NCBI GenBank assembly: GCA_902621725.1 | Contig: CACNND010000008.1 | Location: forward strand, 1 to 51,587 | Origin: an uncultured Alphaproteobacteria bacterium | GTDB taxonomy: Bacteria > Pseudomonadota > Alphaproteobacteria > HIMB59 > GCA-002718135 | Direction: 5' to 3' | Length of the DNA: 51,587 nucleotides | In this document: in pieces, positions 29,856 through 33,028 of the stretch | Numbering within the stretch: the stretch's first letter is position 1 | Layout: every line of letters starts with the position of its first letter | Made by a program: the position numbers and the translations under genes | Notes under the pieces: generated by a model | Told to the model about the DNA's origin: nothing | The model's input: only the letters and a program-made list of their open reading frames with translations | Database searches by the model: none

Positions 29856-31013
29856 ATGGAAGTTTCAAAAAGAATATTTAATCTAGAAACAGAAACAGCA
29901 TTCTCTATTCTTGCAAAAGCGAATAATCTTGCAGCCAAAGGCAAAGATATTATTAATTTAGGAATAGGACAGCCAGATTTTCCTACACCAATAAATATTC
30001 AGGAAGCTGCCATTAAAGCAATTAAAGATGGCTATCACGGTTATACTCCGTCAAACGGAATACCTGAATTACGAGAAGCAATTTCAGAACTAATATTTAA
30101 TAAATACAAAGCAAAGATTAAACCAAAAAATGTTTTAATAACTCCAGGAGGTAAGCCAGTAATTTTTATTTCAGCATTATTGTTAGGTAGTGAGGATAGA
30201 GAAATAATTTTTCCTGATCCAGGATTTCCAATTTATAGATCTATGATCAAATACAGTGGCGCAAAAGCTGTCCCATTAAAGCTTTCAGAAAAAGATAATT
30301 TCGAAATTAATACTGAACAATTAAAAGAGTTAATTTCTGATAAAACAAGTTTGATAATAATAAATAATCCAAACAATCCAACAGGATCATATATGAATAA
30401 GAAAAAAATTACTGATCTTGTTAATTTATTAGATCAATATCCAAACGTCTCCATTTTAAGTGATGAAATTTATAGTAATATTATTTTTAATAATGAACAA
30501 ATGCCATCATTATTAGAATACGAAAGTATAAAAGATAGATTGATAGTTCTTGAAGGATGGAGCAAAACATATTGTATGACTGGATGGAGGTTAGGCTGGA
30601 GTATATGGCCAGAAAATTTAATTGAACATGCTAATAAAATATGTGTCAATTATAATTCTTGTGCTACCTCAATTTCACAATATGCAGGATTAGAAGCAAT
30701 AAAAGGTTCTCAGAAAGAAATAACAAAAATTGTTAGTGAATTTCAAAAAAGAAAAGAGTACGTTTTTACTGAATTGAATAAATTAGAAAAAATTTCTTGT
30801 TTTGAACCGGGTGGTGCTTTTTATGCATTTCCCAATATTTCAAAAACTGGACTGAGCGGAAATAAATTTTCAGAAATTGCACTTGAAGAAAAAGGTGTTG
30901 CATTAGTTCCAGGTTCTAGCTTTGGAGATAATGCTGGAGAATTTGTTAGAATAAGTTTTGCTAATTCTCTAGAAAACATTAAAGAAGCAATTAATAGGTT
31001 ATCAACAATATGA
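29856..31013 (+). CDS. Class I/II PLP aminotransferase (aspartate aminotransferase-like)
   Basis: This fold-type I PLP enzyme has 385 residues and probably transfers amino groups between an amino acid such as aspartate or alanine and a 2-oxo acid. Family motifs are NLGIGQPDFPTP near the N-terminus, GYHGYTPSNGIPELREAIS, IINNPNNPTG, LSDEIYSNI, and the cofactor lysine in EGWSKTYCMTGWRLGW. The C-terminal FVRISFANS holds the carboxylate-binding Arg. It overlaps the following PII gene by 4 nt (ATGA), which hints at a link with nitrogen assimilation. The exact substrate cannot be read from sequence alone. Confidence 0.88.
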   Translation: MEVSKRIFNLETETAFSILAKANNLAAKGKDIINLGIGQPDFPTPINIQEAAIKAIKDGYHGYTPSNGIPELREAISELIFNKYKAKIKPKNVLITPGGKPVIFISALLLGSEDREIIFPDPGFPIYRSMIKYSGAKAVPLKLSEKDNFEINTEQLKELISDKTSLIIINNPNNPTGSYMNKKKITDLVNLLDQYPNVSILSDEIYSNIIFNNEQMPSLLEYESIKDRLIVLEGWSKTYCMTGWRLGWSIWPENLIEHANKICVNYNSCATSISQYAGLEAIKGSQKEITKIVSEFQKRKEYVFTELNKLEKISCFEPGGAFYAFPNISKTGLSGNKFSEIALEEKGVALVPGSSFGDNAGEFVRISFANSLENIKEAINRLSTI

Positions 31014-31351
31014 AAAAAATAGAAGCAATTATTAAACCATTTAAACTTTCTCAAGTTAAAGAAGCTCTTCATGAACTTGGTATATCTGGAATGACATTAA
31101 TAGATGTGAAAGGTTTTGGTAGACAAAGAGGGTCAACTGGTGGGATTGATCCTAATGATGGATATGATGATGAATTTTTAGCAAAAATGAAATTAGAGGT
31201 AATAGTTGAAGATGCACAAGTAATTGATGTTATTGAAACAATAAAATCTAGTGCTTATTCTGGAAAAATCGGTGATGGAAAGATCTTTGTATCAAAAATA
31301 GAGCAGGTAATAAGAATTAGAACTGGTGAAAAAGACAGTGATGCTGTCTAA
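31010..31351 (+). CDS. glnB: Nitrogen regulatory protein PII with an atypical T-loop
   Basis: PII is a trimeric signal protein that reads 2-oxoglutarate and ATP/ADP and tunes nitrogen assimilation. It has 113 residues. IEAIIKPFKL at the start, the B-loop GKIGDGKIFV and the C-loop IRIRTGE are all typical. The T-loop after GFGRQRG is unlike the usual ELYRGAEY form: it reads STGGIDPNDGYDDEF, one residue longer. Aligned from its C-terminal side, Tyr52 falls at the uridylylation Tyr51 position, so modification may still be possible, but the surrounding recognition residues differ. It is coupled to the aminotransferase and lies upstream of the glnA leader. Another PII paralogue may exist elsewhere, so the glnB symbol is approximate. 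Confidence 0.88.
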   Translation: MKKIEAIIKPFKLSQVKEALHELGISGMTLIDVKGFGRQRGSTGGIDPNDGYDDEFLAKMKLEVIVEDAQVIDVIETIKSSAYSGKIGDGKIFVSKIEQVIRIRTGEKDSDAV

Positions 31352-31357
31352 TTTTTC

Positions 31358-31385
31358 TTTACTTTTATTTAAAAGCTAGTAATTA
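31358..31385 (+). promoter_or_regulatory. Predicted promoter of the glnA leader
   Basis: TTTACT (31358-31363) and TAATTA (31380-31385) are spaced 16 nt apart. The predicted transcription start, near 31392, falls exactly at the 5' end of the first glutamine aptamer. That coincidence supports the call, which is otherwise by eye. Confidence 0.45.
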
Positions 31386-31392
31386 CACAATA

Positions 31393-31443
31393 ATCGTTCA
31401 ACTCAATTAGAGTCGGAAGTAGGCATTGTGCTGAAGGAACGCA
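31393..31443 (+). ncRNA. Glutamine riboswitch aptamer 1 (glnA RNA motif)
   Basis: The segment has the conserved order of the glnA RNA: ATCGTTCA, a small hairpin (ACTC/GAGT), CGGAAGTAGG, a short stem (GCA/TGC), then CTGAAGGAACGC. P1 pairs CGTTC with GAACG. These conserved single-stranded blocks (CGGAAGTA and TGAAGGAACG) form the known glutamine-binding three-way junction. The aptamer sits directly in the leader of glnA. The hairpin sequence differs from that of the second copy while its pairing is kept, which is the expected pattern for a real RNA structure. Confidence 0.9.
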
Positions 31444-31457
31444 TGCAAAAGTTATAA

Positions 31458-31512
31458 ATCGTTCAACCTATTTAAATAGGTCGGAAGTAAGCGGGAAGCT
31501 GAAGGAACGCGC
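31458..31512 (+). ncRNA. Glutamine riboswitch aptamer 2 (glnA RNA motif)
   Basis: A second copy lies 14 nt after the first: ATCGTTCA, a hairpin (ACCTA/TAGGT), CGGAAGTAAG, a short stem (AGC/GCT), then TGAAGGAACGC. P1 again pairs CGTTC with GAACG. The hairpin arms and the third stem differ from copy 1 with compensating changes, while the junction blocks are nearly identical. Tandem aptamers in a leader are known to give sharper or graded responses to ligand. Confidence 0.9.
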
Positions 31513-31527
31513 ATCAAAAGCAGATTT

Positions 31528-31592
31528 CATAACTAGAGCATGATTTAACCGGGTAACACTGGAAAGTGTACCCTTATGTTGAAGTTAGGAGA
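31528..31592 (+). promoter_or_regulatory. Candidate expression platform of the glnA riboswitch, with Shine-Dalgarno
   Basis: After the aptamers comes a hairpin of GGGT-A-ACACT with AGTGT-ACCC (one bulged A) around a GGAA loop, at 31551-31573. CATAA (31528-31532) can pair with TTATG (31574-31578) and enclose this hairpin. Alternatively TAACT (31530-31534) can pair with AGTTA (31583-31587), which touches the Shine-Dalgarno AGGAGA (31587-31592). No T-run follows the hairpin, so control of translation is more likely than termination. This pairing scheme is inference. Confidence 0.45.
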
Positions 31593-31597
31593 TAGAT

Positions 31598-33028
31598 ATG
31601 AAATTAAAAAGCTCGACTCCAAAAGATTTAATGTCTGAAATTAAAGATATGGACATCAAAATGGTTGATATGCGCTTTACTGATATGCCGGGAACAACTC
31701 AGCATTTTACAATTCCAATTAAATTTTTAGAAGAAGACACATTTTCCGATGGACTTGGATTTGATGGCTCTTCAGTCAGAGGATTTCAAGAAATTCAAGA
31801 CAGTGACATGATTGTGTTGCCAGACGCAGCGACTGCTTATATTGATCCATTTTTTTCTGAAAAAACTCTAGCCTTACATTGTAATATTAAAGATCCTGTA
31901 ACTTTAGTTGATTATAGTCGTGATCCAAGAAATATAGCTAAAAAAGCTGAAGCATACTTAAAATCATCTGGTATCGGTGATACAGCATTTTTTGGTCCAG
32001 AAGCAGAATTTTTTGTCTTTAATAATGTTCAATTTGACTCGGGATCAAATTTTGCATTCCATGAAGTAGACTCAGTTGAAGGTACTTGGAATAGTGGTGC
32101 TGATGAAAACCCAAACTTAGGTCATAAGCCTAGACATAAAGAAGGTTATTTTCCTTTACCGCCAGTTGATACACTTCAAGATGTAAGAACTGAAATGGTA
32201 ATGACAATGCAAGACATTGGTCTTACAGTTGAAGCACATCACCATGAAGTTGCAACAGGTGGACAATGTGAAATTGATTTAGAATTTTCGCCTTTACTAA
32301 AAATGGCTGATGATATGATGAAATATAAGTACGTTGTTAAAAATGTTGCTAGACAACATGGAATGACAGCTACATTTATGCCTAAACCTTTATTTGAAGA
32401 TAATGGTTCAGGTATGCACGTTCATCAAAGTGTTTGGAAAGACGGTGACACATTAATGTATAAAGAGGGTAACTATGCCAACCTAAGTGATTTAGCTCTA
32501 AATTATATTGGAGGTATACTTAAACATGCACCTGCTCTTTTAGCTTTTTGTGCTCCTACTACTAATTCTTATAAAAGATTGGTCCCTGGCTTTGAGGCTC
32601 CGGTGAACATTGTTTACTCTCAAAGAAATAGAACTGCGTCAGTTAGAATTCCTGCTTATTCTCAAAGCCCTAAAGCTAAAAGAATGGAATTTAGATGTCC
32701 TGATCCTACTGCAAATCCTTACTTAGCATTTTCAGCAATGTTAATGGCAGGATTAGATGGTATAAAAAATAAAATTAATCCTGGAGATCCAACAGATATA
32801 AATCTTTATGCTGCAAGTGATGAAGTTTTATCAAAAATACAATCAACTCCTGGATCATTAGCTGAATCACTCAATGCTCTTGAAAAAGATCATGCTTTTT
32901 TATTAGAAGGTGATGTATTTACGAAAGATGTGATAGATACTTACATTAGCTACAAAAGAGAAAGTGAGGTTGATCCAATTAACATTAGACCTCATCCACA
33001 TGAGTTTAAGCTTTATTACGACGCGTAA
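31598..33028 (+). CDS. glnA: Type I glutamine synthetase
   Basis: This enzyme makes glutamine from glutamate, ammonia and ATP, and is the entry point of ammonium assimilation. It has 476 residues, the length of GSI. Motifs include [16 protein letters not shown], the metal-binding [35 protein letters not shown] and [10 protein letters not shown]. The adenylylation site is kept: Tyr404 in INLYAAS matches Tyr397 of E. coli, so a GlnE-type control may exist besides the riboswitch. The ATG has a good Shine-Dalgarno AGGAGA 5 nt upstream. It is a single gene between its own riboswitch leader and a strong terminator. Confidence 0.97.

Follow-up and report, generated by a model that had tools for sequence, protein, structure and literature searches.

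Tandem glutamine-I riboswitches and a candidate RNA regulon in an alphaproteobacterial family without GlnD or GlnE matches

We analyzed a 51.6-kb window, the whole 51,587-nucleotide stretch of DNA presented here, in which the leader of the glutamine synthetase (GS) gene glnA carries two consecutive glutamine-I riboswitch aptamers. Our main reading, to which we give a probability of about 0.6, is that a regulon of glutamine-sensing RNAs with a shared translational platform stands in for the missing GlnD/GlnE cascade. We hold a fuller version more tentatively, at a little short of even odds: GlnD and GlnE would have been lost family-wide, their place taken by an RNA regulon of four operons whose paired aptamers jointly work one translational switch via their linker, with a sharp and possibly cooperative response.

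Two aptamers between glnB and glnA

A covariance-model search of the window with RF01739 gave exactly two matches above the gathering score of 35, both on the + strand (as are all features of the window described below) and both covering the full model. Aptamer 1 occupies 31395..31441 (Rfam bounds 31393-31445; 59.1 bits, E 1.4e-10), from P1 CGUUC to P1 GAACG, and aptamer 2 occupies 31460..31509 (Rfam bounds 31458-31513; 63.4 bits, E 8.7e-12). These E-values, together with a search of 14 control genomes in which Synechococcus elongatus alone matched, mean that the matches are not due to chance. In the covariance-model alignments, both copies agree with the consensus in P1 and in the CGGAAGUA core. 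Judged by its sequence, the RNA belongs to an established riboswitch class, glutamine-I, and it is because of this membership that we predict direct sensing of glutamine. The tandem aptamers occupy the space between glnB and glnA, about 246 nt in the window. The upstream gene, glnB (31010..31351), encodes a PII protein (PF00543, 110.8 bits), and the downstream gene, glnA (31598..33028), a type I glutamine synthetase (TIGR00653, 663.4 bits against a cut-off of 429.15). The original prediction had placed two glnA RNA motifs before glnA on this strand, and the search found just that; its 14-nt spacing needs correction, as a motif-to-motif count gives 15 nt and the linker measures 18 nt from P1 to P1.

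To assess covariation, we chose 45 of the 190 distinct aptamers so as to cover their diversity; one of the 45 comes from a different family. Pairing is kept in 97.8% of P2 cells and 98.5% of P3 cells, and all of the P2/P3 pairs (8/8) show double-sided changes, in 129 cells; when the whole structure was slid as a control, 27-46% of cells paired. The invariance of P1 and the core among these relatives is uninformative, because the pattern used to find aptamers in the fetched loci demanded both, and divergent copies would be missed by it. Exactly two aptamers stand at 70/70 clade glnA loci with sufficient upstream sequence (from 71 loci in named genomes, leaving out L053, which is cut off upstream), and aptamers were found at 0/9 glnA loci of other alphaproteobacteria. 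It had been claimed from the window alone that the hairpins of the two copies differ with pairing kept, that the copies are not a fresh duplication and that the setting is alphaproteobacterial. The comparison agrees on each point: the host clade is alphaproteobacterial, and recent duplication is ruled out, since P2 and P3 of the copies differ with compensation and both copies are kept at all of the 70 loci. A phage origin of the linker was also considered and rejected; a search for its 16-base signature in viral contigs gave nine matches, none inside an aptamer.

A four-operon regulon and the GlnD/GlnE cascade

In the window's genome, which is 81.6% complete, eight RF01739 matches form four tandem pairs. 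They precede glnA, two amtB genes at a distance of about 2 kb from each other, and an operon for circularly permuted ATP-grasp, alpha-E and transglutaminase-like proteins. At glnA and the two amtB genes, the leader with the RNA belongs to a gene of nitrogen metabolism. No such link is known for the ATP-grasp operon; its position under the riboswitch suggests a nitrogen-linked role for this uncharacterized module. The fetched loci held 209 aptamer clusters, which came down to 147 distinct leaders once those near a locus end and identical ones were dropped. Tandem leaders number 140 (glnA 76, ATP-grasp 30, amtB_b 21, amtB_a 13; the two amtB labels denote best matches, not orthology), and single-aptamer leaders belong to a third, divergent amtB (4) and to the ATP-grasp operon of another alphaproteobacterial family, f10 (3).

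The third amtB (31-32% identity; L011, L171, L173, L175) is preceded by one glutamine aptamer only, and the GCATGC linker signature is missing there. A 141-aa ORF between the two amtB genes (L009:6415-6840, -) matched nothing in Pfam at E 0.001; it is clear of all aptamer matches and adjoins the leader of the downstream amtB. The ATP-grasp operon at L010:3325-6517 (-) is under a tandem riboswitch, and in f10 under a single aptamer. In the leader of L010:5111-6517 (-), a short uORF of about 20 codons starts at an AUG that leader element D, described below, could mask, and runs up to the ATP-grasp start codon; read by eye, another type of leader also keeps this frame open while encoding a different peptide. 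This arrangement suggests that translational coupling may operate before ATP-grasp.

The window's host family (hereafter f1) is probably GTDB GCA-002718135, in order HIMB59 (AEGEAN-169), and its sister family (f2) is probably the HIMB59 family. The available part of PMC10734472 divides GTDB order HIMB59 into two families: HIMB59, with a mean of 1.47 Mb, and GCA002718135, with a mean of 1.70 Mb and 29.09% GC. We assign f1 and f2 accordingly because the window's GC content is 29.1% and f1 genomes tend to be larger than f2 genomes, in agreement with these values. The order also holds exactly two families in our search set, sampled by 162 genomes (110 f1 and 52 f2), most of them incomplete. The AG-... 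isolates among the close relatives are presumably ocean single-cell genomes.

RF01739 is present in 106/110 f1 genomes and in 0/52 f2 genomes. The four f1 genomes lacking a match do not test the glnA leader, because three of them (G015, G064, G133) yielded distant GS paralogues only and the fourth (G128) only a 3′ piece of glnA. In a class-wide sample of 385 genomes, six match RF01739, two from f1 and four from f10. Within f10, the aptamer occurs in 23/32 genomes, as a single copy in 21 of these 23, and the gene after it is ATP-grasp in 18/19 loci inspected. One f10 genome (G547; 2.0 Mb, 4% contamination) carries another three RF01739 matches, all scoring 50 bits and each on a contig of its own.

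GlnD is the glutamine sensor of Proteobacteria, and the GlnD-PII-GlnE cascade acts by protein modification. This cascade and the RNAs described here have in common glutamine as the input and GS and ammonium uptake as targets; they differ in that the cascade modifies proteins and has its genes in the sister family, whereas the host family has RNA aptamers on the target genes. GlnD (TIGR01693) matches in 42/52 f2 genomes, 40 of them over the cut-off, and in 0/110 f1 genomes. GlnE (PF03710) is over its cut-off in 40/52 f2 genomes and matches in 0/110 f1 genomes, and several of the f1 genomes negative for GlnD and GlnE are 90-96% complete. In one f2 genome (G156), a further PF03710 match sits at the GlnD gene, below the cut-off. 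Riboswitch and GlnD are therefore mutually exclusive between the sister families, and the want of any GlnD match in f1 strengthens the original prediction of direct glutamine sensing by RNA. The mutual exclusion fails in f10, where GlnD is found in 23/32 genomes, often the same ones that carry the aptamer (G542, G566).

We take the YRGAEY T-loop of PII and the YDLPP loop of GS to be the sites of the modified tyrosines. In an alignment of 20 of the 31 PII matches, from 24 genomes, YRGAEY is kept in 10/10 f2, 2/2 f10 and 0/8 f1 proteins. Clade glnA loci have glnB in 68/71 cases and keep YRGAEY in 0/68; in the window, the T-loop is altered to STGGIDPNDGYDDEF, versus HTELYRGAEYVVDF in the sister family. 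Similarly, YDLPP is kept in 9/9 other alphaproteobacteria and 3/3 f2 proteins and at 0/71 clade loci, all of which (71/71) have YAAS or YEAP instead; the adenylylation loop of the window's GS reads INLYAASDE, versus KNLYDLPPE or similar in other alphaproteobacteria. Two of three f10 GS proteins read YALS although f10 keeps GlnD (L272 and L273, with the altered adenylylation loop DLYALSEEE). Two f1 loci have glnB-glnA gaps of 247 and 252 nt; the gap measures 40-44 nt in five f2 genomes, and 24 and 35 nt in two f10 genomes. NtrC was considered as a remaining regulator and set aside: the TIGR01818 cut-off was reached in 0/162 f1 and f2 genomes, and two f1 candidate proteins that we checked fit NtrX best (370 and 378 bits, below the NtrX cut-off of 600).

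Because the distribution of GlnD/GlnE is the reverse of that of the riboswitch, and because the PII and GS target loops are altered, RNA probably replaced the GlnD/GlnE cascade as the glutamine sensor in the host family. The regulon and the loss might instead be unrelated, with streamlining having removed GlnD and the RNAs adding fine control only. This has in its favor that the comparison is a single evolutionary contrast between two sister families and that f10 has both riboswitch and GlnD. We nevertheless consider it unlikely, given that the genes carrying the RNAs, GS and amtB, are central to the classical cascade, and that the PII T-loop and the GS loop have changed in the host family too.

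A candidate shared platform and its sign

The linker between the P1 helices (CAUGCAAAAGUUAUAAAU, 31442..31459) is the 5′ strand of a proposed helix, P0 (anti-anti-RBS). Its partner would be element D (GAUUUCAUAACUAGAGCAUG, 31523..31542), which can pair either with the linker or with the glnA ribosome-binding site (RBS; AGUUAGGAGAU) and start-codon region (UAUGAAAU), together at 31583..31604; a local hairpin, seen in the sequence and in folds and, with the terminator scan, lacking a U run after it, lies between D and the RBS (31551..31573). In each of the 140 tandem leaders, the linker measures 17-18 nt and reads CAUGCAA(A/AA)GUU... (one CAUGCUAAG variant apart), and element D, further downstream, ends in GCAUG; a stricter pattern missed none. 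P0 consists of CAUGC:GCAUG in 139/139 leaders plus GUUAU with AUAAC or AUAGC. Some glnA linkers read GUUUGAA or GUUAGAAA and keep their pairing with UUUCAUAAC via a shifted bulge. Among the 139 leaders there are 11 closely similar linkers, 8 D sequences and 17 linker:D pairs; the duplexes of all 17 distinct pairs, which are mutually related, have z<-2 with either side shuffled. The outer five P0 pairs lack covariation support because they are invariant in 139/139. P0 was scored by duplex energies; the joint alignment A2 shifts the amtB/ATP-grasp linker against that of glnA.

The window's D has two options for the alternative pairing: AUUUCAUA can bind UAUGAAAU at the start codon, and AUUUCAUAACU can bind AGUUAGGAGAU (10/11 positions). 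The D of glnA pairs with its own RBS at -9.6 kcal/mol, versus -4.7 to -5.6 kcal/mol with the RBS of other operons. We tested 60 linker/D/RBS combinations; one of the 140 tandem leaders (L183), which has no recognizable SD, was omitted here and in folding. D:RBS pairing has z<-2 in 15/28 distinct glnA combinations and in just 3/32 amtB and ATP-grasp combinations, which is no better than shuffles, and the amtB D pairs as well with the glnA RBS as with its own. Since D:RBS rarely beats shuffles there, the proposed anti-RBS role in amtB and ATP-grasp leaders is read solely from the SD match UUUCCAU/AUGGAGG. In folded ensembles, P0 is rare in glnA leaders, with a mean of 0.11 free and 0.16 with both aptamers forced, and common in amtB leaders (0.64, 0.85). 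Exchange of P1 strands between the aptamers gives an inner helix of 0.46 in glnA and 0.01-0.27 elsewhere (ligand-free ensembles, 47/139 leaders); that it might couple the aptamers is only an idea.

The linker:D/RBS pairing suggests that two aptamers may act on one translational switch: 17-18 nt between P1 helices leaves room for one platform, which we infer from the pairing. Such sharing would make plausible the cooperative or graded response raised in the original prediction. It is very improbable, in our judgment, that the pair consists of independent riboswitches with an expression platform apiece. The published classification takes this form, the available part of PMC9481103 listing 157 glutamine-I doublets and 4 triplets as pseudo-cooperative, with a table column of multiple expression platforms; but in the 140 leaders the P1 helices stand too close together for the separate platforms that this class calls for, the conserved linker is complementary to D, and a scan of 31200-31700 in the window found no terminator-like site between the aptamers or 3′ of them. 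For want of space and of such a site at the glnA locus, we set two separate platforms aside. The same scan bears on transcriptional control, through Rho or an unrecognized terminator, for which the roughly 90-130 nt of leader after aptamer 2 would offer scope. The sole terminator-like site in the scanned stretch lies 5′ of the aptamers, where glnB ends, and D can cover the RBS in glnA, so that we regard this explanation, too, as improbable in comparison with translational control.

In the translational scheme that we favor, D paired with the linker would form P0, which would enclose aptamer 2 and directly follow P1 of aptamer 1, leaving the RBS free; D paired with the RBS and start codon would block translation. 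Glutamine binding would tip the balance between the two pairings, and at high glutamine GS, ammonium uptake and the ATP-grasp operon would all be shut down. We lean moderately towards this sign, with glutamine as the off signal. According to a review (PMC11477058), the ligand-bound aptamer has a G23-C60 pair at the P1 base, and C60 of aptamer 1 is the first P0 nucleotide, so ligand and P0 should compete, which argues for an OFF switch. The f10 leader L263 (near 1502) has its start codon 3 nt 3′ of a single aptamer, whose conserved GAAGGA is placed as the SD; with the likely SD inside the aptamer, it too points to an OFF switch.

Folding gives no consistent sign across leader classes. In constrained folds, P0 increases in each of the four classes when aptamer 2 is forced; when aptamer 1 is forced, P0 decreases in three classes and increases only in glnA leaders. 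RBS accessibility is nearly unchanged except in ATP-grasp leaders (-0.07, lower in 20/30). The 18 folded f10 leaders split into 7 down, 4 up and 7 unchanged; L263 shows no change because its aptamer forms in both states. An ON switch like cyanobacterial gifB would have glutamine close P1 of aptamer 2, favor P0, free the RBS and raise translation. Cyanobacterial type 1 and 2 glutamine riboswitches activate on glutamine, according to the available part of PMC6316151, and the uniform effect of forcing aptamer 2 fits such a switch. However, it would imply that GS and ammonium uptake go up at a time of ample glutamine, and it conflicts with the lowering of P0 by aptamer 1 in three of the four classes and with the anatomy of L263. 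We therefore judge an ON switch rather unlikely, if still worth keeping in view, and prefer the OFF switch.

Known glutamine riboswitches and the host family

Tandem glutamine-I RNAs before GS, PII and amt genes are already known from metagenomes: the available part of PMC2864571 describes glnA RNAs, some in tandem, with genes for PII, GS, glutamate synthase and an ammonium transporter. The RNAs studied here share with other glutamine-I riboswitches (RF01739) their full-length matches well above the gathering score and the nitrogen-metabolism genes downstream. They differ in their host, an alphaproteobacterial family, whereas a 2018 review (PMC6316151, as far as available) states that glutamine riboswitches appear restricted to cyanobacteria and attributes the links to GS, PII and amt to environmental samples. 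Marine phages are a further reported location (PMC9004378, available part). As in the tandem glutamine-I RNAs of PMC9481103 and PMC2864571, each leader has two aptamers of one class; the available parts of these sources point to one platform per aptamer, in contrast to the apparently single shared platform, with its conserved linker, proposed here. The tandem glycine riboswitch, cooperative and with one platform in the available part of PMC9481103, likewise has two homologous aptamers, with a single platform that in our case is predicted; the ligand and aptamer are different, the linker here pairs with an anti-RBS element, and cooperativity is only possible.

In the AEGEAN-169/HIMB59-related literature, the riboswitch in the available part of PMC5069720 is a glycine riboswitch. 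The main texts of two open-licence AEGEAN-169/HIMB59 papers mention neither riboswitch nor glutamine, and for glutamine riboswitch together with GlnD, the open-licence match found concerns cyanobacteria in the part available; such absences carry little weight. Within the literature searched, what is new is the host family, the regulon, a distribution opposite to that of GlnD/GlnE with changes in the target loops, and a candidate shared platform.

The host family is a likely home lineage for the GS- and amt-linked glutamine riboswitches that the 2018 review placed in environmental sequences only. With RNA and protein sensors of glutamine oppositely distributed in sister families, replacement by RNA under genome streamlining becomes testable. 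If the shared platform proves real, glutamine would join the ligands that are sensed by two aptamers working one switch.
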